The notes beneath the pieces were generated by a model. It had not been told where the DNA came from, did no database searches, and saw nothing but the letters and a program-made list of their open reading frames with translations. The translations under genes and the position numbers were made by a program. This document shows, in pieces, positions 1 to 62,657 of a DNA stretch of 64,000 bases (positions are counted from its first letter, which is position 1; the number at the start of each line of letters is the position of its first letter). The stretch is from NCBI RefSeq assembly GCF_003751265.1, contig NZ_RJKN01000005.1, positions 1-64,000 on the forward strand, in the 5' to 3' direction. The stretch comes from Pseudokineococcus lusitanus. GTDB taxonomy: Bacteria > Actinomycetota > Actinomycetes > Actinomycetales > Quadrisphaeraceae.

Positions 1-221
1 AAGCTAAGCCCGTTCGCGCCGATGGTACTGCCTGGGGGACTGGGTGGGAGAGTAGGTCGCCGCCGGACATCTTTTGTGGGTGAGGGGTCGTGGGTACGTG
101 TTCTGCCTTCGGGTGGGGCTCGTGCCTGCGGCCCCTTTCCTGCGTCCACGACCAGGTGCGCCCGGCCGACGGTCGGGCGGGCACGTCCGGGGGCCGACGC
201 CGTCGTCGGTAGCCTCGGCCG

Positions 222-44804: not shown

Positions 44805-45614
44805 TCAGCCCTCGACGAGGTGCCCGTAGACGACGGTGTTGTCGCGGTAGTGGCCCGTGGACCGGTCGAACTCGCCGCCGCAGGTGATGAGGCGGATCTG
44901 CGCGTCGTCGACGCGGCCGTAGACCCGCGCCGTCGGGAAGTCGTCCTTGGCGTACCGCTCGAGGCCGTCGACGACGAAGGTCGCCGTCGTCCCGTCGGCA
45001 CGGTCGACGAGGACCTCGTCGCCTTCCTCCACCTCGGACAGCAGGTAGAAGACCGACGGCCCGGCCTTGGAGTCGATGTGCCCGGCGAAGATGGAGGGGC
45101 CCACCTCGCCGGGGGCGGGCGAGCCGTCGTACCAGGACGCCTTGAGGTTGTCCGGGCCGGTGCGCGGCGGGACGGCGAGCGCCCCCTCCTCGTCGAGGCC
45201 GAGGTGGAGCAGCTCGGTGTCGACGTCGATGGAGGGGACCCGCAGCCGCACCGGGTCCGCGACCTCGACGACCGGCTCCTCCGTCTCCACCGGCTCGGGC
45301 GGCGGGGGGAGCAGGCTCTCGCCCTCCTCGGCCGGCGGGAGCAGCTGCCCGGGGTCGGGCGTCGCGGCGGGCCGCGGGCCGGTGGGCTCCGGCGAGGGGG
45401 ACGGGGAGGGCGCGGGCGGGGCCGCCACGGCGTCCCCGGCGTCGGCGGCGCTCGTCAGCGGCGGCTCGACGGGCCGCTCGTCCCCGGCCGCGAGCCCGGC
45501 GCCGACGAGGCCCAGGCCGAGCACGACGACGGCGCCGCACGCCACCTGGGTGAGGCGGCGCGTGCGCCGTCGCCCGCGGTCGGCGCGCGTCGCGTCCTCC
45601 GGACCTGCCGTCAC
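44805..45614 (-). CDS. class F-type sortase
   Basis: A 269-residue sortase. One N-terminal membrane anchor (about 28-47) is followed by a Pro/Ser/Glu-rich wall-spanning linker (50-125) and the sortase barrel. The catalytic His is in FAGHID near residue 180, Cys in LITCGG near 243 and Arg in GHYRDNTVV near 253. Class F enzymes are the common actinobacterial type and often have no pilin neighbours; none is visible here. Its role would be anchoring or processing exported proteins. The GTG start follows GGAGG. Convergent with the OYE gene. Confidence 0.85.
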   Translation of the reverse strand: MTAGPEDATRADRGRRRTRRLTQVACGAVVVLGLGLVGAGLAAGDERPVEPPLTSAADAGDAVAAPPAPSPSPSPEPTGPRPAATPDPGQLLPPAEEGESLLPPPPEPVETEEPVVEVADPVRLRVPSIDVDTELLHLGLDEEGALAVPPRTGPDNLKASWYDGSPAPGEVGPSIFAGHIDSKAGPSVFYLLSEVEEGDEVLVDRADGTTATFVVDGLERYAKDDFPTARVYGRVDDAQIRLITCGGEFDRSTGHYRDNTVVYGHLVEG

Positions 45615-45770
45615 GGGGGCCTCCTCGTCGTCGGTGCCGTGTGCCCGTCGTTCGGAGCCCGGGGCGGGGCGGTCTGGTGCGGGACCTCCCGACGCTCTCA
45701 CGGCCGCCCCGGTCGCGGTGCTCGGCGCCCCCCGGGTGCCGCACCTGCGGGGCGAGGCGAGGGGACGGCG

Positions 45771-46664
45771 TCAGGGGCACTGCTCCGAGACGTGCCCGCG
45801 CTGCCCGCGGGGGAGGACGTCCCGGTCGCGCAGCAGCACGGGGACGACGTGGCCGCGGGCCGCGCAGGCGGCGCGAAACGCCTCGCGGCCGCCGTCGGCG
45901 TACTCGACCTCGAGGACGTGGCGGCCGTGCACCCAGGTGTACGCGCCGCACTCGTCGTAGGCCTCGCACTCCTCGGCGACCGCGAAGTCGAAGCCCGCGG
46001 TGCGGACCTGGGACCGCGTCAGCCCCGCCGCGTTCTTCTGCGCCACCGCTAGCCCGCGGGAGTGGGCGCGGCGGACGAGGAGCTGCGCGTAGGCGAGGTT
46101 GCCCGCCGTCGTGAGGCGGTCGCCGGAGCGCAGCCACGAGTCGAGGTTGTCGAGCTCGACGGCGCGGTAGCCCTTGTCCGCGCACCCGTCGAGCCACCGG
46201 CCCACGAGCGTCGCGAGCGCGCCGCGCGTCGCGGCGGTGCGGGTGTCGAGGAGGAGCTCGCCGGGCCAGCCGGCGTCCTCGACGGGACGGCCGCGGCCGT
46301 CGCGCAGGACGAGCGACGGGTAGCGGGCGGTCCACCAGCCCGCCTCCTGCGGCTGGGTCTGGAAGGCGTTGACGTAGCAGACCGAGTACCGGCCCGGCGC
46401 GGGCGGCGCCGTCCGGTCGCGGACGACGACGCCGACCCCCGCCGCGGGCGCGTAGGCGCCGCCCAGCTGGTAGTCGAAGCGGGCGCCGACCGGCGGCGGG
46501 GCCACGGCCTGCGCGGCGGCCGTCGTCGCGACGCCGTCGCCGCCGGACGTCGCACCCGCGGCCGGCGCCCCGGCCAGGACGAGGACGACCGCGGCGGCGA
46601 GGACGGCGAGCGGGCGGGGGCGGCGGGTCCGGGGCACCGCGGGACCGGGAGACGTGGGGGGCAC
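45771..46664 (-). CDS. GH114 endo-alpha-1,4-polygalactosaminidase-like protein
   Basis: A 297-residue exported protein. Residues 1-38 are a signal peptide; the rest is a TIM barrel of the TM1410/GH114 family. FDYQLGGAY near residue 62, CYVNAFQTQPQ near 96, ELLLDTRTAATR near 136, AVELDNLDSW near 168 and GFDFAVAEECEAYDECG near 225 are conserved landmarks, including the acidic residues thought to be catalytic. The family cleaves galactosaminogalactan-like polymers in fungi; the bacterial target is unknown. It lies upstream of the sortase gene on the same strand with a 156-bp gap; co-expression is not certain. Confidence 0.82.
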   Translation of the reverse strand: MPPTSPGPAVPRTRRPRPLAVLAAAVVLVLAGAPAAGATSGGDGVATTAAAQAVAPPPVGARFDYQLGGAYAPAAGVGVVVRDRTAPPAPGRYSVCYVNAFQTQPQEAGWWTARYPSLVLRDGRGRPVEDAGWPGELLLDTRTAATRGALATLVGRWLDGCADKGYRAVELDNLDSWLRSGDRLTTAGNLAYAQLLVRRAHSRGLAVAQKNAAGLTRSQVRTAGFDFAVAEECEAYDECGAYTWVHGRHVLEVEYADGGREAFRAACAARGHVVPVLLRDRDVLPRGQRGHVSEQCP

Positions 46665-47404: not shown

Positions 47405-48844
47405 ATGACAGCCCCGTCCGCGCGGGCCTCCCGCGCCGCGGTCCAGCAGGTGGCCGCGACCCTCCTCCCCACCGCCCACGGCACCTTCGCCCTCCACGGC
47501 TTCCGCGCCGGGGACGGCACCGAGCACGTCGCGCTGGTCCTCGGGGACCCGGCCGGCACCGAGGCCGGCCCGCCGCTCGTCCGGGTGCACTCCGAGTGCC
47601 TCACCGGCGACGCCCTCGGCTCCTGGCGCTGCGACTGCGGCGACCAGCTCGACGCCGCGCTGCGCGCCGTCGCCGCCGAGGGGCGCGGCGTCGTCGTGTA
47701 CCTCCGCGGGCAGGAGGGGCGGGGCATCGGGCTCCTCGCCAAGGTGGAGGCGTACGCCCTCCAGGACGCGGGCGCCGACACCGTCGACGCCAACACCGCG
47801 CTCGGGCTGCCCGTCGACGCCCGCGAGTACGACGCCGCGGCCGCGGTCCTCGCCGTCCTCGGCGTCTCCTGCGTGCGGCTCATGTCCTCCAACCCGGCGA
47901 AGGCGGCGGCCCTCGAGGCGGCCGGCGTCGAGGTGGCGGAGGTCGTCGGCCTCGTCGTCCCCGACCGGCCGACGAGCGCGGCGTACCGCCGGACGAAGGT
48001 GGAGCGGCTGGGCCACCTCCCCGTCGCGACCGCGGAGGACCCGTCCGCACCGGACCCGTGGGACGCCCTCGTCGCGGCCGCCCACGGCGGCGCCCCCCTG
48101 CCCCCCGCGGGGGAGGGGCCCGGGACCGCGGGGGGCGACCTCCTCGACCGCTACGCGCCGCTGGCGGCGGGCGGCGCCCCGCTCGTCGTCGCGCAGGTCG
48201 CCCAGAGCCTCGACGGCTTCACGGCCGCCCGCAGCGGGGACGCGCGCTACGTCAGCGGCCCGGCCGACCGCGAGCACCTGCACCGGCTGCGGGCGCTCGT
48301 CGACGTCGTCGTCGTCGGCGTGCGGACCGTGGCCGCCGACGACCCGCTGCTCACCGTCCGGGCCTGCCCCGGGCCGCACCCCGTGCGCGCCGTCCTCGAC
48401 CCGATGGGCCGGGCGCCGCTGGGCGCCACCCTCTTCGGCGACCCCACGGCACCGGTGCTCTGGCTGGTCGGGGCCTCGCGCGCCACCGCCGCGGCGGCGG
48501 CCGTGGCCGACCGGGCGCACGTGGAGGTGGTGCCGCTCCGGGGGTGCACCTCGGGGGAGGACGTCGTCGGTGCGGTCATCGCCGACCTCGCGGCGCGGGG
48601 GCTGCACCGGGTGCTCGTCGAGGGCGGCGCCACGACCGTCTCGCGCTTCCTCGCCGCCGGGGCGCTCGACCGCCTGTGGGTGACGACGGCGCCCGTGCTC
48701 GTCGGCGACGGCGTCCCCGGCCTGCGGTTCGAGGGCGCCGACCTCATGGCCGACGCGCTACGGGCGCCCTCGCGGCGCTTCGTCCTCGGGGAGGACGTCG
48801 CGGTCGAGCTCGACCTCGCGGCCGTCCGCGCCCCCGCGGCCTGA
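47405..48844 (+). CDS. GTP cyclohydrolase II fused to RibD-type reductase
   Basis: A 479-residue bifunctional enzyme. Residues 15-205 are GTP cyclohydrolase II: zinc Cys at about 65, 76 and 78 (SECLTGDALGSWRCDCG), GQEGRGIGL near 102 and the catalytic Tyr in EAYALQ near 117, equivalent to E. coli RibA Tyr105, so full ring opening to the pyrimidine product is expected. Residues 255-475 are the RibD C-terminal reductase (AQSLDGFTA, VGVRTVAADDPLLTVR, VEGGATT). No DHBP synthase or deaminase domain is present, so it makes only part of the riboflavin route. TAGCGT lies 6 nt before the ATG (leaderless). It faces the PTPS/GT4/flippase operon, overlapping its last gene by 87 bp tail to tail. Confidence 0.9.
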   Translation: MTAPSARASRAAVQQVAATLLPTAHGTFALHGFRAGDGTEHVALVLGDPAGTEAGPPLVRVHSECLTGDALGSWRCDCGDQLDAALRAVAAEGRGVVVYLRGQEGRGIGLLAKVEAYALQDAGADTVDANTALGLPVDAREYDAAAAVLAVLGVSCVRLMSSNPAKAAALEAAGVEVAEVVGLVVPDRPTSAAYRRTKVERLGHLPVATAEDPSAPDPWDALVAAAHGGAPLPPAGEGPGTAGGDLLDRYAPLAAGGAPLVVAQVAQSLDGFTAARSGDARYVSGPADREHLHRLRALVDVVVVGVRTVAADDPLLTVRACPGPHPVRAVLDPMGRAPLGATLFGDPTAPVLWLVGASRATAAAAAVADRAHVEVVPLRGCTSGEDVVGAVIADLAARGLHRVLVEGGATTVSRFLAAGALDRLWVTTAPVLVGDGVPGLRFEGADLMADALRAPSRRFVLGEDVAVELDLAAVRAPAA

Positions 48845-49735
48845 CCACCGGGCCAGGTCGATCAGGAGGAGCACCAGGCCGGGTGCGGCCGCCAGCGCCG
48901 CGAGGACGCCGTACCCGGCCGTGACGGCCACCGCCTGACCGGGGGTCGTCCCCGCGGTGCCGGCGGCGACGGCGGCGAGCGCCTCCCGCGGGCCGAAGCC
49001 GCCCACGCCGACGGGCAACGACATGCCCAGGAGCGCGAGCACGGCGAGCACGGCGGTGCCGCGCACGTCCGGCCGCGGGTCGCCGTCGGCGGCGGGCACG
49101 GCGACCGCCGCGACGGCGAAGAGGGCGACCAGCGCGCCCAGCGCCACCGCCGACCACCCCCACACGGCCGCGTGGACGCCGGCCGGCACGCGACCGACCG
49201 CGCGGACGACGACGACGGCGAGCACGAGCGCCGCCGCGGCGAGGCCGACGGCCCAGGCGGGCGAGGCGGCGGCGACGACGGCCGCGGCCACGCCGAGCAG
49301 GAGCGCGGAGCCGGCCAGCCGCTCGACGAGGACGGCGGCGGCGCTGCTCACCCACCCGCCGCGGCGCGGCTCCCGGGCGCGGTGCGCCCGCAGGAGGTCG
49401 CCCGCCAGGCCGCCCGGCAGGACGGCGTTGAGCAGCTGCGCGCGGTAGTACTCGCCGACGGAGCGGCCCCGGGTCAGCCGCGAGCCCGCCGCGGTGACGC
49501 CCGGCCCGGACGCCGCGGCGGGGGTGCGCTGCTGCCGGGCGAGGACGACCGCCCGCCACCGCAGGGCCTGGCCGACCGTCGCCAGCGCCCCGAGGCCCAG
49601 TGCGGCGACCGTCGTCCCCGGGGTGACGACGCCGAGGGCGCGGCGGAAGGGCTCGCCGCCGACGACGGCCACGACGGCGACGAGCAGCGCGACGGCGACG
49701 CCGACCTGCAGGGCGGCGCGGGTGCGGCGGCCCAC
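48758..49735 (-). CDS. UPF0104/LPG-synthase-type flippase
   Basis: A 325-residue membrane protein with about eight spans. YYRAQLLNAVLPGGLAGDLLRAHRA near residues 95-119 and LPVGVGGFGPREALA near 240 are signature blocks of the lysylphosphatidylglycerol synthase transmembrane (UPF0104) family, members of which flip lipids or lipid-linked sugars. It lacks the synthetase domain. Last gene of a five-gene operon, 8 bp after the methyltransferase. Its 3' end overlaps the end of the RibA-RibD fusion gene on the other strand by 87 bp. Proposed role: export of the lipid product of this cluster (inference). Confidence 0.8.
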   Translation of the reverse strand: MGRRTRAALQVGVAVALLVAVVAVVGGEPFRRALGVVTPGTTVAALGLGALATVGQALRWRAVVLARQQRTPAAASGPGVTAAGSRLTRGRSVGEYYRAQLLNAVLPGGLAGDLLRAHRAREPRRGGWVSSAAAVLVERLAGSALLLGVAAAVVAAASPAWAVGLAAAALVLAVVVVRAVGRVPAGVHAAVWGWSAVALGALVALFAVAAVAVPAADGDPRPDVRGTAVLAVLALLGMSLPVGVGGFGPREALAAVAAGTAGTTPGQAVAVTAGYGVLAALAAAPGLVLLLIDLARWSGRGGADGREVELDRDVLPEDEAPRGRP

Positions 49736-49743
49736 GGCCGACC

Positions 49744-50571
49744 TCAGCGGGGGGCGGCGGCCGGCGCCGCCGCGAGGTCGACGTGCTCGACGACCGCGCG
49801 CAGCCGCCCCGCGGCGAGCTGCTCACGGCGCTGCGCGAGCCAGGCGTCGGCGTCGCGCTCCAGCGCGGGGTCCTGGGCGACGGCGGCCCCGGCCCGCCCC
49901 TCGAGCCACGCGTCGGCGAGGTCCGGGGCGGCCGGGCCGAGGTGCCACGGCGTCGCGACGGCGAGCACGCGGGCGCCGGCGGCGGCCAGCGTCTGCGCGG
50001 CCACGCCCGCCGCGTCGGGCCCGAGGCGTCCGCCGCGGCGCTGGTGGGCGTCGAAGGCGGCGCGCAGGGCGTCGTCGTGCGCGTGCGGCGGGTCCAGCGC
50101 GACGCCGCCGGTGACGGTCAGCGCGAGCAGCGCCGGCACCCCGGCGTCCGCCAGCGCGGCGGCGAGGTCGGCCACCTGGTCGGGCCGGAGCAGGTCCAGC
50201 AGTGCCGCGCAGGTGACGAGGTCGGCACCGTCGCCCAGCGCGTCCGCCAGCCCGGCGAGGTCGCCGAGGCGGGGCCGCACGACGACGCCCGCGGGTGCCG
50301 GGGCGTCGGCGGTCCGCCGCAGGAGGTCGTCGTCGTGGTCGAGGAGGAGCCACTCCTGCGCGTACCCGCGGGCCGCGAGCGCGGGGGCCAGGTGGCGGAG
50401 GTTGGCCCCGGTCCCGGCCCCGAGGTCCACGACCCGCAGCGGGCGGTCGGCCGCGGGCAGGGCCAGGTGGTCCAGCAGCCCGTCGGTGACGGCGGCCCGG
50501 GCCCGCTCGTCCTCGGGCTCGCGCAGCGCGAGCCACGCGGCGGGGACGGGGGTGGTGTCGTCGTGGCTCAC
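49744..50571 (-). CDS. SAM-dependent methyltransferase
   Basis: A 275-residue class I methyltransferase. Motif I is LRVVDLGAGTGANLRHL near residue 48, motif II/post-I LLLDHDDDLL near 78 and CAALLDLLRPDQ near 122. The family match is to methyltransferases found next to PTPS and GT4 genes. The GTG start lies inside the stop codon of the glycosyltransferase gene (4-nt overlap), so the two are translationally coupled. Substrate unknown; the context suggests a glycosylated or pteridine-like intermediate. Confidence 0.82.
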   Translation of the reverse strand: MSHDDTTPVPAAWLALREPEDERARAAVTDGLLDHLALPAADRPLRVVDLGAGTGANLRHLAPALAARGYAQEWLLLDHDDDLLRRTADAPAPAGVVVRPRLGDLAGLADALGDGADLVTCAALLDLLRPDQVADLAAALADAGVPALLALTVTGGVALDPPHAHDDALRAAFDAHQRRGGRLGPDAAGVAAQTLAAAGARVLAVATPWHLGPAAPDLADAWLEGRAGAAVAQDPALERDADAWLAQRREQLAAGRLRAVVEHVDLAAAPAAAPR

Positions 50572-51680
50572 GGGATGTCCTCCGGCCGGGGCTCGCGGTG
50601 CTCGAGGTGGTGGAGCAGGGCGGCGGCGGTGGCGTCCCAGCCACCGCGCGCGAGGAGGGCCGCCCGGCGTCGGGCGGCCGCCCGTCGGGCCGGTGCGCCA
50701 CTGTCCCCCAGGAGGCGTCGGACCGCAGCCGCCAGCGCGTCCACGTCGCCGGGGGGCACGACGGCGCCGGGCACGTCGTCCCGCCCCGCCCGGGGCGGGA
50801 GGTCGCCGAGCAGGGCCTCGACGGCGCCCGTCCCCGCCCCGACGACGGCCGGGACGCCGCGGACGAGCGCCTCGGTGACGGCCATGCCCCACGTCTCCGC
50901 GCGCGAGGGGAGCAGGAGGAGGTCCGCGGCCGACCACAGGCGCGCGAGGTCGCGGCCCCGGACGGCTCCCGGGCGCGAGACCTGTCCCGCGAGACCGGCT
51001 CCCGCCACGGCGGCGTCCACCGCGGCGGCGTACCGGGCGTCGGCCACGGGACCCGCGAGGACAGCCGTCCAGGGCCGGTCGGCCAGCCGGGCGAGGGCCG
51101 CGACGACGCCGAGCTGGTCCTTGCGCGGCCCCACCGCCGCGAGCTGGAGCAGCAGCGGTGCCCCGGTCGCGGCCGAGCCGGGGGAGCGCGGGGCCGGGTC
51201 GACGCCGGGGACGGCCACGCCGACGTGGGCGAGGCCGTGCCGGGCGCGCAGGTCCGCGGCGGCCCACGCGCTCGTCGCGAGGACCGAGGTGGCGGCGGCG
51301 AGGGTGACGCGCTCGACGGCGTCGCGGGCGACGGCCGTGGCGGCGTCGAGACCGCCCTCGCGGGCGAGCGGCAGGTGGACGAGGACGTGCACGCGGACCC
51401 CCGCGGCCACCGCCCGCGCCACCGCCTCCGGCGCGGCGGCGAGGAGCCCGTCGAGGACGACCTCCCGCCCGTCGTCTGCCAGCGCCGCGGCGAGGGCGTC
51501 GCGGGCCGCGCCGTCCGGCGCCGGCCACGCGCCGTCGACGACGGCGACCTCGACGTCGGCCCTGCGGGCGCGCAGGGCGACGACGAGGGCACGGTCGTAC
51601 GCGCTGCCCCCCGAGACGGCGTCCCAGGGGGCGGGCACGACGAGGCGCAGCCGGCGGGGCGGCGGCGCCCCGGCGGTCAC
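50568..51680 (-). CDS. GT4-family glycosyltransferase
   Basis: A 370-residue GT-B fold enzyme. VVPAPWDAVSGGSAYDR near residue 14 is the acceptor-side glycine loop; LLQLAAVGPRKDQLG near 185 and LLLPSRAETWGMAVTEALVRG near 263-283 hold the nucleotide-sugar EX7E motif of family 4. It would transfer a sugar from a nucleotide donor to a small or lipid acceptor. Both ends overlap neighbours by 4 nt (GTGA): the PTPS-like gene upstream and the methyltransferase gene downstream, so the three are made together. Confidence 0.85.
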   Translation of the reverse strand: MTAGAPPPRRLRLVVPAPWDAVSGGSAYDRALVVALRARRADVEVAVVDGAWPAPDGAARDALAAALADDGREVVLDGLLAAAPEAVARAVAAGVRVHVLVHLPLAREGGLDAATAVARDAVERVTLAAATSVLATSAWAAADLRARHGLAHVGVAVPGVDPAPRSPGSAATGAPLLLQLAAVGPRKDQLGVVAALARLADRPWTAVLAGPVADARYAAAVDAAVAGAGLAGQVSRPGAVRGRDLARLWSAADLLLLPSRAETWGMAVTEALVRGVPAVVGAGTGAVEALLGDLPPRAGRDDVPGAVVPPGDVDALAAAVRRLLGDSGAPARRAAARRRAALLARGGWDATAAALLHHLEHREPRPEDIP

Positions 51681-52081
51681 GGCAGATCGGTGCGGTAGCT
51701 CGCCCACGCGTCGGGCGTCTCGCGCAGGACGACCTCCAGCGAGGCGAGGCCGCGCGTCAGGCCGGCCGCGCCGCCGCCCTCGCGGCCCGCCTCGACGACC
51801 CGGTCCGCCACCCAGCGGGCGAGGACCTCCGTCGTCGTCAGGCGGCCGACGAAGGCGGGGTGCTCGTCGAGGTCGCGGTACCGCAGCTCGTCGAGGACGG
51901 CGGCGAGGGCGGCGGAGGCGGCGCCGATGTCCGCGACGACGCCGTGCTCGTCGAGCTCCCGGGCCGCGAGGACGAGCTCGACGTCGTACGTGGCCCCGTG
52001 CTTGGCCTGCGCCGGGCCGAAGAAGGGGTGGGGCAGGGAGTGGGCGACCATGACGTGGTCGCGGACGCTCACGCGGTACAC
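51677..52081 (-). CDS. 6-pyruvoyl-tetrahydropterin synthase/QueD-family enzyme
   Basis: A 134-residue protein of the PTPS/QueD family. Zinc-binding His residues are in VMVAHSLPHPFFG (near 11-23) and KHGATYDV (near 28); LDEHGVVADIG near 43 and TTTEVLARWVADRV near 82 are conserved. The Cys that normally starts catalysis is not visible at its usual place between the two His motifs, so the reaction may differ from 6-carboxytetrahydropterin synthesis. In this operon it would act on a pterin or on the pyrimidine made by the RibA-RibD fusion. GTG start; GAGGAG lies 12 nt upstream. 33 bp after the dehydrogenase gene. Confidence 0.82.
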   Translation of the reverse strand: MYRVSVRDHVMVAHSLPHPFFGPAQAKHGATYDVELVLAARELDEHGVVADIGAASAALAAVLDELRYRDLDEHPAFVGRLTTTEVLARWVADRVVEAGREGGGAAGLTRGLASLEVVLRETPDAWASYRTDLP

Positions 52082-52114
52082 GGGGTCTCGGGGCTCCTCG
52101 GGTCGGGGCGGGTG

Positions 52115-53137
52115 TCAGCGGGCGGCGGGGTGGTCGACGACGAGGCACAGCGCCTCGCGCCGGCCGGCGGCGAGGTCCTCGACGGCCCGCGGCAGGTCGG
52201 CCAGCGCCACCGGCCGCGAGAGCAGGGCGTCGAACGCCGGGTCGCGCAGCAGGTCGAGGGCCGTCGCCAGACGCTCCGCGGTCGTCCGGCGGGCCCGCCG
52301 GGACGCGGCGACGGCGCCCACCTGCGAGGCGCGGACGACGAGGCGCCGGGCGTGGAAGGCGGCGCCGAGGTCCACGGTGACCGGGCGGTCGCCGTACCAG
52401 GAGACCTCGACGAGCTCGCCCTCGTCGCCGAGCAGCTCGAGCCCGCGGCCCAGACCGGCGCCGGAGGCGGACGCGTGGACGACGACGTCGCAGCCGCCCA
52501 GCGCGTCGTCCGGCAGGGCGAAGTCGACGCCGAGGGCCGCGGCCACCGCCGCGCGCGCGGGGTCGACGTCGACGAGCTGGAGCCGCTGGAGCGGGAAGCG
52601 GCGCGCGAGGGCCGCCACGCACGCGCCGACCATCCCGGCGCCGACGACGGCGACGCGGTCGCCCATCCGCGGGGCCGCGTCCCACAGCGCGTTGAGCGCC
52701 GTCTCGACGGTGCCCGCGAGCACGGCGCGCCGGGGCGGCACGCCGTCGGGCAAGGGGTGGACGGCGGCCGCCGGCACGACGTAGCGGTCCTGGTGGGGGA
52801 AGAGGCAGAAGACGGTGCGGCCCAGGAGGTCCGGCGGGGCGCCGGCGCCGAGCCCCTCGACGACGCCGACGGACAGGTAGCCGTACTTCACGGGGCCGGG
52901 GAGGTCGCCCTCCTGGAAGGGCGCGCGCATGGTGGCCGCCACGGCCGCCGGGACGCCGCCGCGGTGGACGAGCAGCTCGCTGCCGCGGCTGTAGCCCGAG
53001 TGCAGGGTGCGGACCAACACCTCGCCCGCGGCGGGCGGGGCCAGCGGGACCTCCCGCAGCTCACCGGCCCCGGGCGCGACGGTCCAGTACGCGGTCGCGG
53101 TGGTCGCGCCGGGCTCGGACCTCGCCTGGACGGGCAC
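52115..53137 (-). CDS. zinc-type alcohol dehydrogenase family protein
   Basis: A 340-residue medium-chain dehydrogenase. The Rossmann motif VAVVGAGMVGACVAAL lies near residue 162 and LVDVDPARAAVA near 187 marks NAD-type binding. GYSRGSELLVHRGG near 48 stands where zinc-enzymes have CGSD, so the catalytic zinc ligand Cys is replaced and the enzyme may be zinc-independent. First gene of the operon with PTPS, GT4, methyltransferase and flippase. TAGGGT lies 8 nt before the GTG, inside a 29-bp gap shared with the divergent phosphatidyltransferase gene. Substrate unknown. Confidence 0.8.
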   Translation of the reverse strand: MPVQARSEPGATTATAYWTVAPGAGELREVPLAPPAAGEVLVRTLHSGYSRGSELLVHRGGVPAAVAATMRAPFQEGDLPGPVKYGYLSVGVVEGLGAGAPPDLLGRTVFCLFPHQDRYVVPAAAVHPLPDGVPPRRAVLAGTVETALNALWDAAPRMGDRVAVVGAGMVGACVAALARRFPLQRLQLVDVDPARAAVAAALGVDFALPDDALGGCDVVVHASASGAGLGRGLELLGDEGELVEVSWYGDRPVTVDLGAAFHARRLVVRASQVGAVAASRRARRTTAERLATALDLLRDPAFDALLSRPVALADLPRAVEDLAAGRREALCLVVDHPAAR

Positions 53138-53166
53138 GACCGGGGACCCTAGGTGACCCTGTCCGC

Positions 53167-53922
53167 GTGAGCCACGCCAGCGGTGCCCCGGTCCTGGCCG
53201 GCGGCACGGCGCGCCGGGACGCGACGGTCACCGGCCTGGTGACCGTGGTGCTCTGCGGGGTGCTCGCCACGTGGGCGGTGGCACGGTCCGCCGTCGTCCC
53301 GGCCGTGCCCGGCCTCGACGCCGTCGCGGCGGCCGTCGTCGGCAGCGCCCTCGTGGGCGTCGCTGCGCTCGCGGTGGCGCGCCGTGCCGACGGCTGGAGC
53401 GGCCCCGCGGACCGGGTGACCCTGCTGCGGACCGTGCTCGGTGGCGGCGTGGCGACCCTCGTCGTCGTCGACCTCCTGCACGGCGACCTCGGGCCGTCGT
53501 GGGCGGTGGTCGCGCTCGCCGCCCCGGCGCTCGCCCTGGACGGCGTCGACGGCGCCGTCGCCCGTCGGACCCGGACGTCGACCCCCGCCGGGGCCCGGCT
53601 CGACATGGAGGTCGACGCGGGCCTCATCGCGGTGCTGTGCCTCCCGGCCGCGGCGGTCGTCGGGTGGTGGGTGCTCGCGGTCGGCCTGCTGCGCTACGCC
53701 TGGGTGGCCGCCGGGCAGGTGCGCCCCGCGCTGCGCGGCGACCTCGCGCCCCGGCTCTCCCGCAAGGTCGTCGCGGCCACGCAGGGCGTGGTCCTCGTCC
53801 TCGTCGCCGTCCCCGGGCTGCCGCCGGCGCTCGCCACCGCCGCGGCGGCCGGTGCGCTCGTCGCGCTGCTGTGGTCCTTCGGGCGGGACGCGGTGGCGCT
53901 GGAGCGCGCCGCCCGCCGCTGA
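53167..53922 (+). CDS. CDP-alcohol phosphatidyltransferase family protein
   Basis: A 251-residue membrane enzyme with about six spans. The motif DGVDGAVAR...GARLDMEVD near residues 124-150 matches D-x2-DG-x2-AR-x8-9-G-x3-D-x3-D with all metal-binding Asp residues. The family joins a CDP-linked lipid to an alcohol (glycerol phosphate, inositol phosphate, choline and others). Its start lies 29 bp from the divergent dehydrogenase gene, with GACCCT 6 nt upstream, so it probably belongs to the same regulatory unit. Its stop abuts the stop of the mprF-like gene (TGATCA) with no gap. Confidence 0.87.
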   Translation: MSHASGAPVLAGGTARRDATVTGLVTVVLCGVLATWAVARSAVVPAVPGLDAVAAAVVGSALVGVAALAVARRADGWSGPADRVTLLRTVLGGGVATLVVVDLLHGDLGPSWAVVALAAPALALDGVDGAVARRTRTSTPAGARLDMEVDAGLIAVLCLPAAAVVGWWVLAVGLLRYAWVAAGQVRPALRGDLAPRLSRKVVAATQGVVLVLVAVPGLPPALATAAAAGALVALLWSFGRDAVALERAARR

Positions 53923-56547
53923 TCAGCCCCGCACGAGCCCCCGCACGCCGCCGCCGACGAGCGTGGCGACGTCGACCATGGCGGTCGGCAGCGCCAGGCC
54001 CCGGGGGGCGGCGACGTAGCAGGTGCGCCAGCGCGGCAGGAAGCCCTGCTTGAAGCCGCGGAGGCCGCGGAAGTTGTAGAGCTGCTCGCCGTGGCTCCAC
54101 ACGAGGTGGCCGAGCCGCTCCCACGCGGAGGGGGCGTCGCCGCCGCCCAGCCCGGACAGGGGCGCCACGCCGAGGTTGAAGGCGGAGAAGCCGGCATCCT
54201 TGGCCCAGAGGATCGCCTCGACGAAGAGGTAGGTCATCACCGTGCTCGGCCCGTCGGGCAGCCGGCGCATGAGGTCGACCTGCACCTCCTCGCCGTCGCC
54301 GCCCACCCACAGCGTCGCGAAGGCGACGACGCGGTCGTCCTGCCGGACGACGACCACGGGGGAGCGCCGCACGTACTCCTCGTCGAAGGTGCCGAGCGAG
54401 AAGCCTTTCTCCTTGCCGTTGCGGGACGTGAGCCACGCGTCGGAGACCTCGCGGAGGGCGGGCACGAGCGGGCCGACGTCGGCCGCCGCGACGACCTCGA
54501 CCGACATGCCGAGGCGCTGGGACTTGTTGCGGCAGGTGCGCAGGTTGGTCCGCGCCTTGCCGGTGAGGGAGAAGTCCGCGAGCGGGACGACGGCCTCCTC
54601 GCCGAGCTTGGTCAGCGCGAGGCCGTGCGCGCGGTAGAGGTCGGCGTGGTCGTCGAGCACGGTGTAGAAGACGGGTCGCCCGCCGTGCCGGTCGACCTCC
54701 GCGAGGAAGCTCCCGAGCAGCCCGGGGAAGGCCGTGGCGTCGCCGACGGGGTCGCCCATGACGACCCAGCTGCGGCCCTCCACCTGGTACATGAGGAAGG
54801 CGGCGCCGCAGGGCGCGAAGTGGAAGCGCTTGTCGCCGGTGAAGGCCAGCTGGGACGAGCACCGGCCGGAGCGCGCGACGAGGTCGGCGACCCGCGCCAT
54901 CTCCGCGTCGTCGGCGGCCCGCTGCGCGGGGGTGCGGCGGCGCAGCACCCAGCGCCCGCCGAGGAGGACCCCGGCGACGCCGGCGAGCACCGCGAGGCGG
55001 TCGGCGAGGGCGGTGTCGCCGGAGCTCGAGGCGGCGAGCAGCGGCGCGTCGACGGCGCCGCCGCCGAGCTCGAGCCACCACACCGCCGCGCCGACGAGCA
55101 CGGCCGCGGCGACGGGACGGACGGGGGCCCGGCGGCCGGCGGGGCCGGCGCCGCGGTGGAAGACGCCGCGCGCGGGCAGGAGCAGGAGCGCGAGGCCGCT
55201 CGTCACCCCGGTGAGCACGAGGTCTCCGTGGGTGGCCGCGACCACGGCGAGACCGGCCAGCAGCGCCAGCGTCGCCACCCACGCCGCGCGCCAGCGCCGG
55301 TGGAGCCCGCGGGCGAGGACGAGGGCCGCCAGTCCGCCGAGGCCGGTCGTGACGCCCGACAGGTCGGGCAGGCGGGCGCCCGGGAGGTCGCCGCGGAGCA
55401 GGACGAGGAGCCCGGTGCCGGCGACGACGAGGGCGAGGACGGACGGCGTCAGGACCGTGGGCAGCCGGGCGGCGGACGCGGCCGCGGCGCGGGCGGGCGC
55501 GGGCGCCGGTGCCGGCGGGGCGGTCGTCTCGAGGGCGGACGGGCGGCGCATGGCGGGGACGGCGGCGGCAGCGGGCGCCGCGGGGGTGACCTCGGCGCGA
55601 CGGGCCGCGGCGGTACGGACCTCGTGCCGCACGAGGAGCGCGGCCGCGAGGAGCAGCGGGAGCACGAAGTAGACGAGCCGGTAGGCCACGAGCGCGACGG
55701 CGAGGTCCGGCGTCGCCACCTGCGCCCCGACGAGGACGACGAGCGCCGTCTCGAAGACGCCGAGGCCGCCGGGCACGTTGCTGACGAGCCCCGCGACGGT
55801 GGCGACGGCGAAGGCCGCGGCGAAGGGCAGGAAGGGCATCCGGCCGTCCGCGGGCAGGAGCACGTAGAGGGCGGCCGCCATCGTCAGCCACTCGACCGTG
55901 GACAGCGCCACCTGCGCGAGGGCCACGCGCGGGGTCGGCGGTGCGACGCGCCGGCTCCCGCGGCCGACGGCCCGACCGGTGCAGGCCCAGGCGAGGAAGC
56001 CGGCGACCGCGGCGAGCAGCACGACCCCGAGGGCGAGCGTCGCCGCCGGGGGGAGCCGCAGGGCCCGGCCGGCCGCTCCGGGGTCGTGCACCACGCCAGC
56101 GCCCGCGAGGACGGCCGCACCGAGCGCCACGGTGACGGTGCTGAAGCCGAGGACGCGCGCCACGGCGGGGCCGGGGACCTGCCAGCCGGAGTAGACGCGG
56201 GCGCGCAGGGCCGCGCCGACGAGCGCGGAGGCGCCGAGGTTGTTGCCGAAGGCGGTGGCGACGAAGGACGCCAGGCCGTACCGGCGGTAGGGCAGGGGGT
56301 GGCCCACGTAGCGCAGCGCGAGCGCGTCGTACCCCGTCATGGCGACGTACGACGTCGCCGTGGCGAGGAGCGCGGCGAGCACGACGCCGGGGCCGAGCGC
56401 GACGAGGTCGCCGCCGAGGTCCGACCAGTCGTAGGACCGGAAGGTGCGGTGCAGGAGCACGAGGGCGGCCGCGAGCACCCCGCCGACGAGCAGCGGGGCG
56501 AGCAGCCGGCGCACCGGGCCGGGCAGGCGGACGGTCGACGAGCGCAT
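53923..56547 (-). CDS. MprF-like lysylphosphatidylglycerol synthetase/flippase
   Basis: An 874-residue two-domain protein. The N-terminal half has about 14 spans including the UPF0104 flippase block VSNVPGGLGVFETALVVL near residue 265. A Pro/Ala-rich loop (about 330-365) leads to a second set of spans, then the DUF2156 acyl-transferase domain (about 560-865) with LAFTGDKRFHFAP near 580, WVVMGDPVGD near 605 and FNLGVAPLSG near 797. MprF adds lysine or alanine from tRNA to phosphatidylglycerol and flips it outward, which lowers sensitivity to cationic peptides. The C-terminal domain could use another aminoacyl-tRNA. Confidence 0.87.
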   Translation of the reverse strand: MRSSTVRLPGPVRRLLAPLLVGGVLAAALVLLHRTFRSYDWSDLGGDLVALGPGVVLAALLATATSYVAMTGYDALALRYVGHPLPYRRYGLASFVATAFGNNLGASALVGAALRARVYSGWQVPGPAVARVLGFSTVTVALGAAVLAGAGVVHDPGAAGRALRLPPAATLALGVVLLAAVAGFLAWACTGRAVGRGSRRVAPPTPRVALAQVALSTVEWLTMAAALYVLLPADGRMPFLPFAAAFAVATVAGLVSNVPGGLGVFETALVVLVGAQVATPDLAVALVAYRLVYFVLPLLLAAALLVRHEVRTAAARRAEVTPAAPAAAAVPAMRRPSALETTAPPAPAPAPARAAAASAARLPTVLTPSVLALVVAGTGLLVLLRGDLPGARLPDLSGVTTGLGGLAALVLARGLHRRWRAAWVATLALLAGLAVVAATHGDLVLTGVTSGLALLLLPARGVFHRGAGPAGRRAPVRPVAAAVLVGAAVWWLELGGGAVDAPLLAASSSGDTALADRLAVLAGVAGVLLGGRWVLRRRTPAQRAADDAEMARVADLVARSGRCSSQLAFTGDKRFHFAPCGAAFLMYQVEGRSWVVMGDPVGDATAFPGLLGSFLAEVDRHGGRPVFYTVLDDHADLYRAHGLALTKLGEEAVVPLADFSLTGKARTNLRTCRNKSQRLGMSVEVVAAADVGPLVPALREVSDAWLTSRNGKEKGFSLGTFDEEYVRRSPVVVVRQDDRVVAFATLWVGGDGEEVQVDLMRRLPDGPSTVMTYLFVEAILWAKDAGFSAFNLGVAPLSGLGGGDAPSAWERLGHLVWSHGEQLYNFRGLRGFKQGFLPRWRTCYVAAPRGLALPTAMVDVATLVGGGVRGLVRG

Positions 56548-59122: not shown

Positions 59123-60026
59123 GTAGATGGTAGGAGCTTTCGAGGGCACCCGGGGACTAGCAGATCCGCAGACTGCTGCGGGTGACGTCACCGTTGACCT
59201 CACGGTTCCCCACGGCAGACCTCGGTCAAAACGGTGAGTAGGAGGTGGGCGACAGGCAGGGGACGGACCCCTGCCGCCACCCGTCCGGGTGCGTGACGGC
59301 GAGGAGGTGCGTAGGGATGCCGGCCTTGCTGACGTGTGACCCGCAACGGGCCGTTGACACCCGCTCGCGGGCCACTAGGCCCTCGTGACTCCCGCCGCCC
59401 CTTGCGGCTGAGGACAACAGCTGGCGACCCTTCCAGGAGCCTCGCAGAGCTACAGGGGCGGTGTGCCGGGACCGTATGACGCACCTCAACGGGCCGGGCT
59501 GACGTTCACAGGAGGACGACGAGAGCGCCTTCAGCGGTGTCTTACGACAGCGCGAGCCACGAAGTGCAAGGCACGTCATTCTGTGGGCCCTCGGTGTGCC
59601 CGCCCGGCGCCGCCTCAGACACGTCAGCTGGTTCGCGTGCCGCTGGACCGCGTGACGGTCGGCCGATGCCATCTCTAACGTCCATCGCCCAGTGACGTGG
59701 GCCCTCGACTGCAGTACGCGCGGCCTTGTGTCACCAGACCTGTCGACGAAGCAGCGGTGGCAACGCTTCGAGACCGCCGGCCGGGGGCTGAACCGTGCGG
59801 GACGGCAAAGCGACGCTACGCCAGCTTGGCGCGGAGCGGTGCGCGCACTCCAACGAGCTGTCGCCCGGGGTGGGCAGGGCGCCCTAACCCCCACCTCCTG
59901 AGTGGCGTCACGCGCCTCTGTTGGCCATGGAGTGACCCACGCGTTTCCCCCCAGGTTCTGTCAGCGCGTGCGAGCATCCAACCCTTGCCTCAACTGGGAG
60001 GCAATGAGACTCGGGGGGTCATTGCC
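59123..60026. other. 900-bp stretch without a recognisable gene
   Basis: Open frames exist on both strands, but none has a convincing start, codon bias or family match. The left end holds the perfect palindrome GGTGACGTCACC (59181-59192) followed by an imperfect CCGTTGACCTCACGG, which might be recombinase or excisionase sites. The right end should contain the helicase promoter. It may be gene debris. Confidence 0.5.
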
Positions 60027-62657
60027 TTGACACAGCCCACATCACAGGGACGCCCGCGCCCGCGCTTCCGTACTCGCGAGGACGCGCCGGCCGCGGCGAA
60101 GGACCCCGAGAGTCTCTTTGGGGAGCTGCCTCGAACTCCTAAGGGAGTTGGTGCGCTGTGGTCCCATCAGGCGGACCAGTTGCGTGTCTATTCCGAACAC
60201 CATAAGAGCACCCCAGACGTTGCCTTGGAGCTTCCTACGGGTTCGGGTAAGACGTTGGTCGGACTCCTCATCGCAGAGTGGCGACGACGGGCACTGGGCC
60301 ACCGTGTTGTCTATGCATGCCCCACTAAGCAGCTTGCTCGCCAAGTACTCGTTAAGGCGCAGGAGCAGGGCATCCCCGCCGTCCTCCTCGTCGGCCCTCA
60401 CCGTCAATGGGACAGGGCCGATCTAGGCCGCTACACGCGTGGCGAAGCAACGGCGATAACAGTTTATAGTGCCATCTTCAATATGAATTCCCAGCTTGCG
60501 GATTCCCAAACACTGCTCTTCGACGACGCGCATGCGGCCGAAGGCTTCGTCGCGGAAGCGTGGGCGCTAAACATCGAGCGCGGCAACGCCGTTTACACCC
60601 AGCTCTTCGACGCCCTAGCGGAGGACATCGATCAGCACTTCGTCACCCGGATGGTCTCGCCAGACAGCCTAGCCGTGGACCATGCGGAAGTTCGACTGCT
60701 TCCCGTGGCTACAGTGGCTCGACGTGTAGACGACCTAGATGCAGTGCTAGCCACTCTCCAGGGCAACGAGGGCTGGCGATACAGAATGCTACGCGCCAAT
60801 CTTGTGTCATGCCTGGTGTATGTCGCACGCGCAGGCTTCTATATTCGCCCCATGATCCCGCCCACTTTCGAGCACGAAGCATTTACGAATCCCGATCAAC
60901 GCATCTATCTGTCGGCAACTCTCGGCGATGCGGGGGAACTTGAGCGTGCTTTCGGCCGAGGTTCCATCAGCCGGGTGCCGGTTCCCCCCGCATGGGACCG
61001 AACCGGCAGTGGGCGGCGCTTCTTCGTCTTCCCTGACCTGGCTGCGTCTCCTAGTGACCAGGCTGACCTAGAGACCCCCGACGATTCTGCGCCTCCGGCA
61101 GGATCCCAACTGCTAGCGGAAATCTTCGATCTTGCGGACCGACGGCTTGTCCTAACGCCGGACGAAAGGCGAGCATCCGCTATGGCGAAGTCGCTCGAAG
61201 TTCCGGAGGGCGAACGCTACGACGCAAAGGACCCAGAGGCAGGTCTACAGCCGTTTGTAAGTGCCCACCGTGGGACACTTCTGGCTGCAAACCGCTACGA
61301 CGGAATGGACCTCGCGGCAGATGCGTGCCGCATGATGCTGATGGACGGGCTGCCCTCGGCGTCGCACCTCCAAGATCGCTTTCTGGAGTCGAAGCTTCGA
61401 GCAGGTGAGGTGCTGCGGGAGCGCATCCGGACGCGAGTCGTACAGGGTACGGGTCGTTGTACGCGGGGACCCAAAGACTGGGCCGTCGTGGTGATCACCG
61501 GAGAGGACCTTCTTCGATACTTGTCACGCGTGGAAGTCCGTTCGACGCTCCCAGTGGAGTTGCAGGCTGAGGTGGCCTTTGGCCTGCGCGCCAGTCAAGT
61601 GCCCAGCGATGAACTCGTGCTGCTTGCCGAAAGTGCGCTTCTCCAGGACGAGGTTTGGCAGGAGGATGCTGAGCCTGACTTGGCGAGGCGTCGCCGTGAA
61701 GCTGAGCGCAAGCCATCGCCCCACGTTGACCAGCTTGCTGCCAGCGCCACCCGAGAGGTCCGCGCTTGGACCTTCGCCTGGGAACGTGATTGGGAAGCAG
61801 CGGCCCGTACAGCTGTGGAGATCATGGAGAAGCTGACCGCTGCGCCGCTCCGGCCCTACCGGGCACTGTGGGCTTACCTCGGGAGTGCCTGGTCGAGCCT
61901 TGCAACAGTGGAGGGGGACAGTGCGGCGATCGAGAGAGCCGAGCATCTTCTGCGTCTGGCTCACAAGGCTGCGGTTGGCACGACCTGGTTGAAGGAGGTG
62001 CAGCCGCTGCCGTCTGCGGCTCCGGATTCAGAACCGGTCGACGAGGAGGCGGTGGGTCGCATTCAAGAGTTGCTTGATGGCCAGATGCGCTCTGTTGGCA
62101 AGTTCAATACAGAGGTGTCGACCATGCTTGCCGATCTCGCGCAGTCTGAGGCTAAGAGGTACGAAAGGGCGCTCGTTACCCTAGGGAGATTACTCGGTGC
62201 CGACGCTTTCAAACCGGATGGTCAAGGTAGGGCCGATGCTGTTTGGCTGTGGACGCCGCTATGGCTGACCGTAGAGGCTAAGAGCGAGCAGAGCAGTGAG
62301 GGACTCTTGAGCATGGGTTACGTGCGTCAAGCAAATACTCAGTTGGCATCCGTCGCCGGCGACCGCGGGGAGGATGCGCCGCCTGATGGCAGCATCAGCG
62401 TAATCGTCAGCCCCAGAGGAGTCGTGGACCCCGATGGTGTCGCTATCGCGTCTCCGCATGTTCACCTAGCTTCTCCGAGGCTATTGTTGGACGTGGCTCA
62501 CGATGTCGTCAGGGCTTGGAGAGAACTCCGTGGCCTGACGCCAGGTGTGTCCGGCGATGCTCGCCGTCAAGCAACGGCTTCGCTCCTGTGGCAGCACCGT
62601 GTGCTGCCTACGCAGGTCAAGGAGCGCCTTGGCCGCGATCCCATCCGTGGCGTCTGA
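60027..62657 (+). CDS. XPD/DinG-like helicase fused to PD-(D/E)XK-like nuclease motif
   Basis: An 876-residue protein. Walker A LELPTGSGKTLVG near residue 70, Walker B LLFDDAHAAEG near 163 (DDAH), YLSATLGD near 294 (motif III) and RYDGMDLAADACRMMLMDGLP near 420 plus QGTGRCTRG near 472 (motifs V-VI) show a superfamily 2 helicase of the XPD/DinG (Helicase_C_2) type. It lacks the four-Cys iron-sulfur cluster of XPD. The C-terminal part (about 690-820) has GRADAVWLWTPLWLTVEAKS near 735-755, matching a PD-(D/E)XK site (Asp ... Glu-x-Lys). A start at the TTG of 60027 fits the conserved N-terminus but is uncertain. Carriage on an island suggests defence against phage or plasmids. Confidence 0.75.
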   Translation: MTQPTSQGRPRPRFRTREDAPAAAKDPESLFGELPRTPKGVGALWSHQADQLRVYSEHHKSTPDVALELPTGSGKTLVGLLIAEWRRRALGHRVVYACPTKQLARQVLVKAQEQGIPAVLLVGPHRQWDRADLGRYTRGEATAITVYSAIFNMNSQLADSQTLLFDDAHAAEGFVAEAWALNIERGNAVYTQLFDALAEDIDQHFVTRMVSPDSLAVDHAEVRLLPVATVARRVDDLDAVLATLQGNEGWRYRMLRANLVSCLVYVARAGFYIRPMIPPTFEHEAFTNPDQRIYLSATLGDAGELERAFGRGSISRVPVPPAWDRTGSGRRFFVFPDLAASPSDQADLETPDDSAPPAGSQLLAEIFDLADRRLVLTPDERRASAMAKSLEVPEGERYDAKDPEAGLQPFVSAHRGTLLAANRYDGMDLAADACRMMLMDGLPSASHLQDRFLESKLRAGEVLRERIRTRVVQGTGRCTRGPKDWAVVVITGEDLLRYLSRVEVRSTLPVELQAEVAFGLRASQVPSDELVLLAESALLQDEVWQEDAEPDLARRRREAERKPSPHVDQLAASATREVRAWTFAWERDWEAAARTAVEIMEKLTAAPLRPYRALWAYLGSAWSSLATVEGDSAAIERAEHLLRLAHKAAVGTTWLKEVQPLPSAAPDSEPVDEEAVGRIQELLDGQMRSVGKFNTEVSTMLADLAQSEAKRYERALVTLGRLLGADAFKPDGQGRADAVWLWTPLWLTVEAKSEQSSEGLLSMGYVRQANTQLASVAGDRGEDAPPDGSISVIVSPRGVVDPDGVAIASPHVHLASPRLLLDVAHDVVRAWRELRGLTPGVSGDARRQATASLLWQHRVLPTQVKERLGRDPIRGV

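Follow-up and report, generated by a model that had tools for sequence, protein, structure and literature searches.

GTP cyclohydrolase II (GCH II) cleaves the imidazole ring of its substrate, GTP, and releases the formyl group. In Streptomyces coelicolor, the GCH II SCO6655, with Met in place of a Tyr, reportedly stops at the formylamino pyrimidine, and the PTPS homologue SCO6650, which carries HGA for the zinc motif HGH, is said to have been described in its structure paper as devoid of both zinc and PTPS activity; its PDB entry (3d7j) reads 'uncharacterized protein'. Here we analyse a block of seven genes at positions 47405-53922 of the first 64,000 nucleotides of contig NZ_RJKN01000005.1 of Pseudokineococcus lusitanus, this whole stretch being hereafter the window. 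Its products include relatives of both proteins, and the block may form a dedicated pathway drawing on GTP. To our knowledge, no product has been assigned to SCO6650 or to the PTPS-like protein of the window.

Passages of PMC5041015 assign to the PTPS-I, II and III groups of COG0720 the motifs CxxxHGH, CxxxxxHGH and ExxHGH, respectively, CxxxHGH being that of QueD. As regards the formylated intermediate, passages of PMC9478397 describe its deformylation by BrbF, a creatininase-family formamidase of riboflavin synthesis in Sinorhizobium meliloti, and this 2022 paper there calls the GCH III-like partner of BrbF yet to be discovered. Individual locus tags from this part of S. coelicolor are mentioned in PMC2853524 and PMC3610822. 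A search of the open full-text literature, from which most subscription journals are absent, yielded no publication describing the cluster or a pterin-linked lipid.

Conservation of the Block

The list of open reading frames (ORFs) and a Pfam search of the window proteins agree with an earlier note on this DNA in placing all seven genes within the block, including the one for a CDP-alcohol phosphatidyltransferase that diverges from the others (Table 1). From 53137 downwards, the minus strand carries the genes for a dehydrogenase, a PTPS-like protein, a glycosyltransferase, a methyltransferase and a UPF0104 membrane protein, and the spacing between their ORFs (+33, -4, -4 and +8 bp) bears out the coupled operon seen in that note. 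They are faced by a fusion of GCH II with a RibD_C reductase domain, whose gene shares 87 bp, tail to tail, with that for UPF0104.

Conservation was explored in a first set of 94 loci, comprising the window, 13 relatives and the best 80 loci from a scan of 84,980 species genomes that yielded at least 551 confirmed PTPS candidates; one contig was counted twice (L023 and L060). Family presence was scored at 100 bits or more with profiles made from the first set itself, and therefore a second set was scored with the same profiles. The latter contains 38 loci, 18 of 19 from a sample of the phylum of L094 (one first-set genome being left out) and 20 of 42 from genomes of the class of the window, none with an exact 150-base match at the PTPS gene to any first-set locus.

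Family counts were taken from the 79 first-set loci whose flanks reach 6 kb or more in either direction. PTPS, used as bait, and the dehydrogenase are found in all 79, the glycosyltransferase in 77, the methyltransferase and RibD_C in 45 each, the phosphatidyltransferase in 42, UPF0104 in 35 and GCH II in 33. All eight families coincide in 18 loci, 26 have the triad of dehydrogenase, PTPS and glycosyltransferase only, and 2 have just dehydrogenase and PTPS. The second set contains the triad in all 38 loci (PTPS again as bait), the methyltransferase in 36, UPF0104 in 27, the phosphatidyltransferase and GCH II in 26 each and RibD_C in 21, together with a creatininase-family gene in 19 and an AlkP-like membrane protein in 7. 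Gene order is equally constant, the dehydrogenase gene lying 5' of the PTPS gene on the same strand in 94/94 first-set loci (profile-to-profile gap with a median of 43 bp and a maximum of 1166) and the glycosyltransferase gene 3' of it, also on the same strand, in the 91/91 that have one. Mantel correlations, calculated without species-tree control from hits of at least 120 bits and with L060 dropped, range from 0.65 to 0.90 among dehydrogenase, PTPS, glycosyltransferase, methyltransferase, UPF0104 and phosphatidyltransferase, and reach 0.73 between GCH II and RibD_C; for all 28 pairs, 0/999 permutations attain the observed value.

Besides the genome of the window, the PTPS-like protein is present in 13/58 relatives. 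At E <=1e-30 it is found in 42/296 genomes of the class, that of the window counted, and in 19/299 genomes of the phylum of L094, with the centre genome (L094 itself, named Prosthecomicrobium) counted. A phylum-wide draw at 1e-10 gave matches in 73/396 genomes, nine of at least 190 bits, one partial match of 110 bits and the others under 91 bits, which may be ordinary QueD relatives. The best 80 of the at least 551 loci, being those closest to the query, are weighted towards Actinobacteria; represented among them are Micrococcales, Micromonospora, Streptomyces and Nocardiopsis, as well as several genera of Proteobacteria, Gemmatimonadota and other metagenome bins. Thus, the block is a conserved and widespread unit; the conserved neighbourhood on which the earlier note had made its reading depend exists in Actinobacteria and in records named Proteobacteria, Gemmatimonadota and others.

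Some further features of these loci were observed. One class genome (G761, contigs C134 and C111) holds two strong PTPS-like copies. Leaving the window aside, 22 of 93 first-set loci (L054:15875-17527 and L063:6378-8084 being examples) also encode a protein of ~500-600 amino acids, which accompanies the cluster in many Proteobacteria, Gemmatimonadota and Micromonospora. The match in L040 is very weak, at 28 bits, and the one member scored gave a weak, sub-cut-off sulfatase/AlkP match of 19.7 bits. Genes resembling tadA and upp, named from their sequence starts, adjoin the Arthrobacter triad and look like local synteny.

GCH II and the Creatininase-Family Gene

In the GCH II of the window, the three zinc cysteines are retained, as are, in E. 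coli numbering, Glu53, Tyr105, Asp126 and Arg128; the roles of the cysteines, Asp126 and Arg128 are those we assume for this enzyme. In the first set, 37 GCH IIs with a profile score of at least 150 were compared, a 70-bit fragment in L078 being dropped. All 12 that have a creatininase-family gene in the locus are altered, with Tyr105 changed to Met or His in 4, always together with Asp66 to Glu, and Glu53 changed to Ala or Ser in 8. Among the 25 without a creatininase in the fetched stretch, 24 are intact at both residues, the window included, and one (L084) has Glu53 replaced by Gly. The association has a Fisher probability of 7.0e-9, not corrected for kinship; since the carriers are akin to one another, the pattern amounts to few independent events.

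The second set contributes 26 GCH IIs. None of the 18 that are accompanied by a creatininase-family gene is intact: Tyr105 is exchanged in 17 (for Met in 13, His in 2, Gln in 1 and Leu in 1), each of which also has Glu for Asp66, and Glu53 is exchanged in 1. The 8 without such a gene comprise 2 intact enzymes and 6 with Glu53 changed to Ala. Over both sets, the creatininase stands alongside 21/21 Tyr105 changes, 9/16 Glu53 changes and 0/26 intact enzymes. A strict rule by which a changed Glu53 means a creatininase was rejected, as it holds in those 9/16 only.

Met at the Tyr105 position, as reported for SCO6655, occurs in the loci L085, L102 and L104, which are named Streptomyces, and in 13 second-set loci. 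The window GCH II differs from this formyl-stopping type in that it keeps Tyr and is fused to RibD_C; with Tyr in place, it should therefore deformylate by itself. The cluster creatininase of the relatives may be a formamidase, although the one cluster protein scored lies closest to MftE. In comparison with BrbF as portrayed in the passages above, it pairs with an altered GCH II, and the window has none. Because the creatininase pairs only with altered, never with intact GCH IIs, the cluster would need the deformylated diamine, 2,5-diamino-6-ribosylamino-4(3H)-pyrimidinone 5'-phosphate (DARoPP), obtained either through an intact GCH II or through an altered one plus a formamidase. This coupling strengthens the reading of GCH II and reductase given in the earlier note.

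Two variant forms of GCH II were also seen. The proteobacterial-type cluster enzymes (e.g., L219:13480-14646 and L050:13646-14785) have an extra N-terminal stretch of ~180-190 amino acids without Pfam match, and these two score 418 and 393 bits, respectively, with PRK08815, just under its cut-off of 464. At L151:9310-11187 and L152:8369-10285, both Arthrobacter-type, a second GCH II of the genome shares one frame with an acyl-CoA-dehydrogenase-like domain; these fusions were considered as the missing supply gene and dropped, with no dehydrogenase, PTPS, glycosyltransferase, methyltransferase, UPF0104 or phosphatidyltransferase of the cluster around them.

Catalytic Sites of the Other Proteins

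The best solved match of the window PTPS-like protein is SCO6650 (3d7j), over the full length and with an E value of 8.1e-32. The zinc motif HGH is replaced by HGAT in 93/94 first-set members (92 counted by script and L048 by eye) and by HGVT in 1/94, and Ala-Gln, or Ala-Arg in one of the 94, stands at the sites of the Cys and Glu of PTPS-I and III. The cluster members, which read AQxxHGA, share with the COG0720 groups the family and the anchor Glu (Glu121 in the window protein, retained in 94/94), and differ from all three in motif. This Glu presumably grips the 2-amino-pyrimidinone edge of the T-fold ligand. Full-length similarity, the motif FGPAQxxHGAT and the anchor Glu make the window protein one of the SCO6650 type, although, unlike SCO6650, it stands in a block with a fused GCH II of intact Tyr. 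With the zinc His and the catalytic Cys lost and the anchor Glu kept, the protein is expected to accept a pterin-like or guanine-like ring but not to carry out PTPS or QueD chemistry. The earlier note spoke of a PTPS-family enzyme, which holds for homology only, as the residues for catalysis have been lost.

The dehydrogenase, modelled with an MDR fold at a confidence score (pLDDT) of 92.4, scores 49.8 bits with TIGR01202 (BchC), under the cut-off of 291.25. Ser50, Tyr87 and Asp190 are invariant in the aligned members. We take the first two, by motif, to occupy the zinc Cys/His positions, and on this assignment the catalytic Cys and His of zinc-dependent alcohol dehydrogenases are missing, so the protein is probably zinc-free. 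Throughout the alignment, Asp190 stands at the end of the second Rossmann strand, which by a rule that we assume to hold here points to NAD and to the direction of oxidation; the enzyme is thus probably of the NAD type. Five of its 16 PDB sequence matches (4oh1, 3qe3, 1e3j, 1pl6 and 7y9p) are polyol/ketose dehydrogenases, a suggestive match only. The methyltransferase model (pLDDT 94.8) has methyltransferases as its fold matches, and glycosylation and methylation by the block are likely, judging from the families.

The fusion of GCH II with RibD_C recurs in 13/94 first-set loci, the window counted. When compared with solved structures, the cluster reductase profile gives the DARoPP reductases 6p8c and 2azn at 173 and 149 bits, and 127 bits for the best bacterial RibD; for the window reductase alone, 6p8c is still the top solved match. 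The structures thus point, less clearly than the creatininase coupling does for GCH II, to a DARoPP reductase acting before deamination, with the curated models undecided. In having no deaminase domain, the window reductase resembles 6p8c and 2azn, which are diaminopyrimidine reductases serving riboflavin synthesis; unlike them, it is fused to GCH II, in a bacterium with its own RibD. The 25 aligned reductases fall into two subtypes, 6 members being 30 to 31 percent and 18 members 40 to 66 percent identical to that of the window, and the step seems to be filled by different paralogues.

Proposed Pathway and Alternative Explanations

From gene content, conservation and the state of the catalytic sites, which the sequence itself gives, we infer substrates and products as follows. 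In the first step, the GCH II domain would open GTP to DARoPP, as a single enzyme in the window, while in relatives with an altered GCH II the formyl intermediate would probably be deformylated by the creatininase-family amidohydrolase. For those clusters that have GCH II, there is good support for GTP as the source of an aminopyrimidine. In many but not all clusters, RibD_C would then reduce the ribosyl to the ribityl chain with no prior deamination, the ribityl diamine being likely the next compound where the reductase is present. In a third step, the NAD-type, probably zinc-free dehydrogenase and the T-fold protein would yield a modified aminopyrimidine or pterin, to which, in the fourth, the GT4 enzyme would add a sugar and the methyltransferase a methyl group. 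Finally, where the genes are present, the phosphatidyltransferase would link the product to a lipid and UPF0104 would move it across the membrane.

We give this explanation, taken whole, an even chance of being right. The product is probably a sugar-bearing molecule made from the starting material of vitamin B2, perhaps membrane-linked. More tentatively, and as something that we would not yet expect to hold, the cluster may represent an undescribed class of trans-phylum pathway for membrane-anchored glycosylated pterins or ribityl-aminopyrimidines from GTP, with a redox-neutral pair of reductase and dehydrogenase and a zinc-free T-fold protein, outside the riboflavin and folate pathways. As for the heterocycle that the earlier note had the block make, modify, lipid-link and export, that reading is supported in part, by the neighbourhood; its exact chemistry stays putative, the modifications being read from the families.

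Several observations weigh against the five-step pathway. The triad-only loci have neither GCH II nor RibD_C nearby, and 25 of the 26 are named Arthrobacter, Pseudarthrobacter, Paenarthrobacter, Sinomonas or Nesterenkonia. In the same uncontrolled Mantel comparison, GCH II and RibD_C correlate less with the other families (0.40 to 0.64), which for RibD_C the two reductase subtypes may explain. A creatininase is missing from the loci of seven GCH IIs whose Glu53 is changed, L098, L108, L110 and L213 have a creatininase and no GCH II in reach, and the creatininase scored, from L050, resembles MftE (115 bits, cut-off 172) more closely than ArfB (27.4 bits, cut-off 180). Taken alone, the window reductase scores some bacterial RibD structures above 2azn, and matches the RibD C-terminal model at 110.1 bits and the archaeal reductase model at 89.7, both below cut-off. 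A search for a dedicated reductase, with only 150 candidates scored per genome, showed none in the triad-only genomes G017 and G035. Among eight further class genomes it lies in the cluster in G899 (295 bits) and G965 (276 bits) and elsewhere in G994 (184 bits), whereas G083, G186, G389, G250 and G882, which all carry GCH II and creatininase in the locus, gave only matches like those of an ordinary RibD (155 to 165 bits) or weaker. In addition, the fold search of dehydrogenase and methyltransferase returns generic families only, with no hint of a substrate. Given the triad-only loci and the genomes without dedicated reductase or phosphatidyltransferase, the reductase, the lipid transferase and the flippase are frequent but not obligatory.

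The alternative that survives best, although we hold it unlikely, is a soluble glycosylated pterin or aminopyrimidine, with the phosphatidyltransferase and UPF0104 serving some other or optional step. Pterin glycosides are known from cyanobacteria and green sulfur bacteria, and it is dehydrogenase, PTPS and glycosyltransferase that form the near-invariant core, the phosphatidyltransferase being missing near it in 37 and UPF0104 in 44 of the 79 loci; the lipid linkage of the earlier note is read from these two families. A cluster-type phosphatidyltransferase gene also lies elsewhere in 3/6 triad-only genomes (G017, G035 and G059, not G060, G061 or G451). Six other genomes were searched, of which G000 (where the match is the gene of the window itself), G454 and G456 have it and G452, G453 and G455 do not. 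The distant genes of the three triad-only and of two other genomes have no other cluster family within ~9 kb on either side, which likewise favours this alternative. Against it, both families co-diversify with the core (0.65 to 0.83 for the phosphatidyltransferase and 0.82 to 0.90 for UPF0104), and the phosphatidyltransferase gene is divergent and at most 1.5 kb from the dehydrogenase gene in 34 of the 49 loci that have both. Its catalytic motif, which we take to be D-x2-DG-x2-AR-x8-G-x3-D-x3-D, is invariant in 28/28 aligned members, the window counted. The UPF0104 protein belongs to PF03706, matches no NCBIfam family at 0.001 and may act as a flippase. Lipid linkage appears plausible, on these two families, in the full-length form of the cluster that the window carries.

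Less probable still is a route from GTP to a pterin, in which RibD_C would reduce C1', the dehydrogenase would oxidise C2' and the T-fold protein would close the ring to dihydroneopterin monophosphate, in sum the Amadori step of GTP cyclohydrolase I (GCH I). A gene set that brings together a reductase, an NAD-type dehydrogenase and a T-fold protein suits it, as do the polyol/ketose dehydrogenases among the matches of the dehydrogenase, and GCH I is itself a T-fold ring-closing enzyme. Nonetheless, the dehydrogenase is kept where a dedicated reductase is absent, and GCH I is present in 23/23 cluster genomes examined, so this route is not needed for pterin supply.

We attach little credence to a cluster for riboflavin supply or a flavin analogue, in which the fusion would boost riboflavin and its neighbours would be unrelated or flavin-modifying. 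GCH II and RibD_C are riboflavin-pathway families, and the GCH II part scores 212.7 bits with TIGR00505 (ribA), above the cut-off of 205.85, which makes it a RibA member. The fusion is, however, no bifunctional RibD, as Pfam finds no deaminase domain and TIGR00326 gives 100.9 bits (cut-off 156.35), and the block proteins of the window include no deaminase, RibB, RibE or RibH family by Pfam. A second GCH II in this genome is part of a RibBA protein (G000:C3) and a deaminase-bearing RibD is encoded elsewhere (G000:C2), so the fusion is not the only riboflavin route and the block is no riboflavin operon in the sense of being the sole GCH II and RibD source. The core triad, moreover, occurs without GCH II nearby. 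A plain riboflavin gene, the outcome that the earlier note named as contrary to its reading, is accordingly unlikely, and a chance-duplicated one was rejected on the separate RibBA and RibD and on the conserved gene company. A 7-deazapurine pathway with QueD-like chemistry is very improbable: the protein is of the PTPS/QueD family and scores 38.4 bits with TIGR03367 (cut-off 89.25), but a QueD identity was rejected on the CxxxHGH motif, absent in 94/94 members, and no QueE or QueC family occurs among the window block proteins, other loci not having been searched for them.

Block Layout and Surroundings

Table 1. Features of the block and the adjoining gene in the window.
Feature	Coordinates	Strand	Evidence
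GTP_cyclohydro2 and RibD_C fusion, without deaminase domain; 479 amino acids	47405-48844	+	Pfam 208.7 and 117.1 bits
UPF0104 (LPG_synthase_TM) membrane protein; may be a lipid flippase	48758-49735	-	PF03706 54.4 bits, cut-off 33.4
S-adenosylmethionine-dependent methyltransferase	49744-50571	-	PF13649 Methyltransf_25 28.3 bits, cut-off 27
GT4-type glycosyltransferase	50568-51680	-	PF00534 Glycos_transf_1 66.1 bits
PTPS-like T-fold protein, SCO6650 type	51677-52081	-	Pfam PTPS 78.1 bits
MDR-family dehydrogenase, distantly BchC-like	52115-53137	-	ADH_zinc_N 23.3 bits, under cut-off 31.8
Divergent gap between dehydrogenase and CDP-alcohol transferase, 29 bp	53138-53166	.	Coordinates
CDP-alcohol phosphatidyltransferase	53167-53922	+	PF01066 CDP-OH_P_transf 42.0 bits
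MprF gene, full length; directly adjoins that of the CDP-alcohol transferase in tail-to-tail orientation	53923-56547	-	NCBIfam 706 bits, cut-off 600

MprF was rejected as a member of the block, since tblastn at 1e-6 matches it in none of the first-set loci apart from the window, 93 in number. Elsewhere, the contig and the window start inside a 5S rRNA gene (1-68, plus strand), and at 44805-46637 (minus strand) a sortase-domain protein adjoins a glycoside hydrolase of family GH114. At 59697-62657, the plus strand encodes a DEAD-type helicase of 986 amino acids that matches the PADLOC candidate defence family PDC-S28 at 341 bits, in a stretch of ~60-64 percent GC compared with 74-82 percent for most of the window.

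Significance

The block encodes a real and widespread pathway that is apparently uncharacterised so far, and its product appears undescribed. The core marker gene is present in roughly one seventh of the class genomes sampled and one sixteenth of those sampled from a second phylum, and yet the product goes unreported in the literature found. Such a pathway would give a role to SCO6650 and to SCO6655, the latter reportedly formyl-stopping. Ribityl-pyrimidine chemistry is what mucosal-associated invariant T (MAIT) cells sense, and a product consisting of a pterin or ribityl-pyrimidine linked to a lipid, if confirmed, would be a new kind of membrane molecule. The coupling between GCH II and creatininase, in turn, predicts a bacterial two-enzyme replacement of GCH II, which bears on the missing partner of BrbF as presented in passages of PMC9478397.

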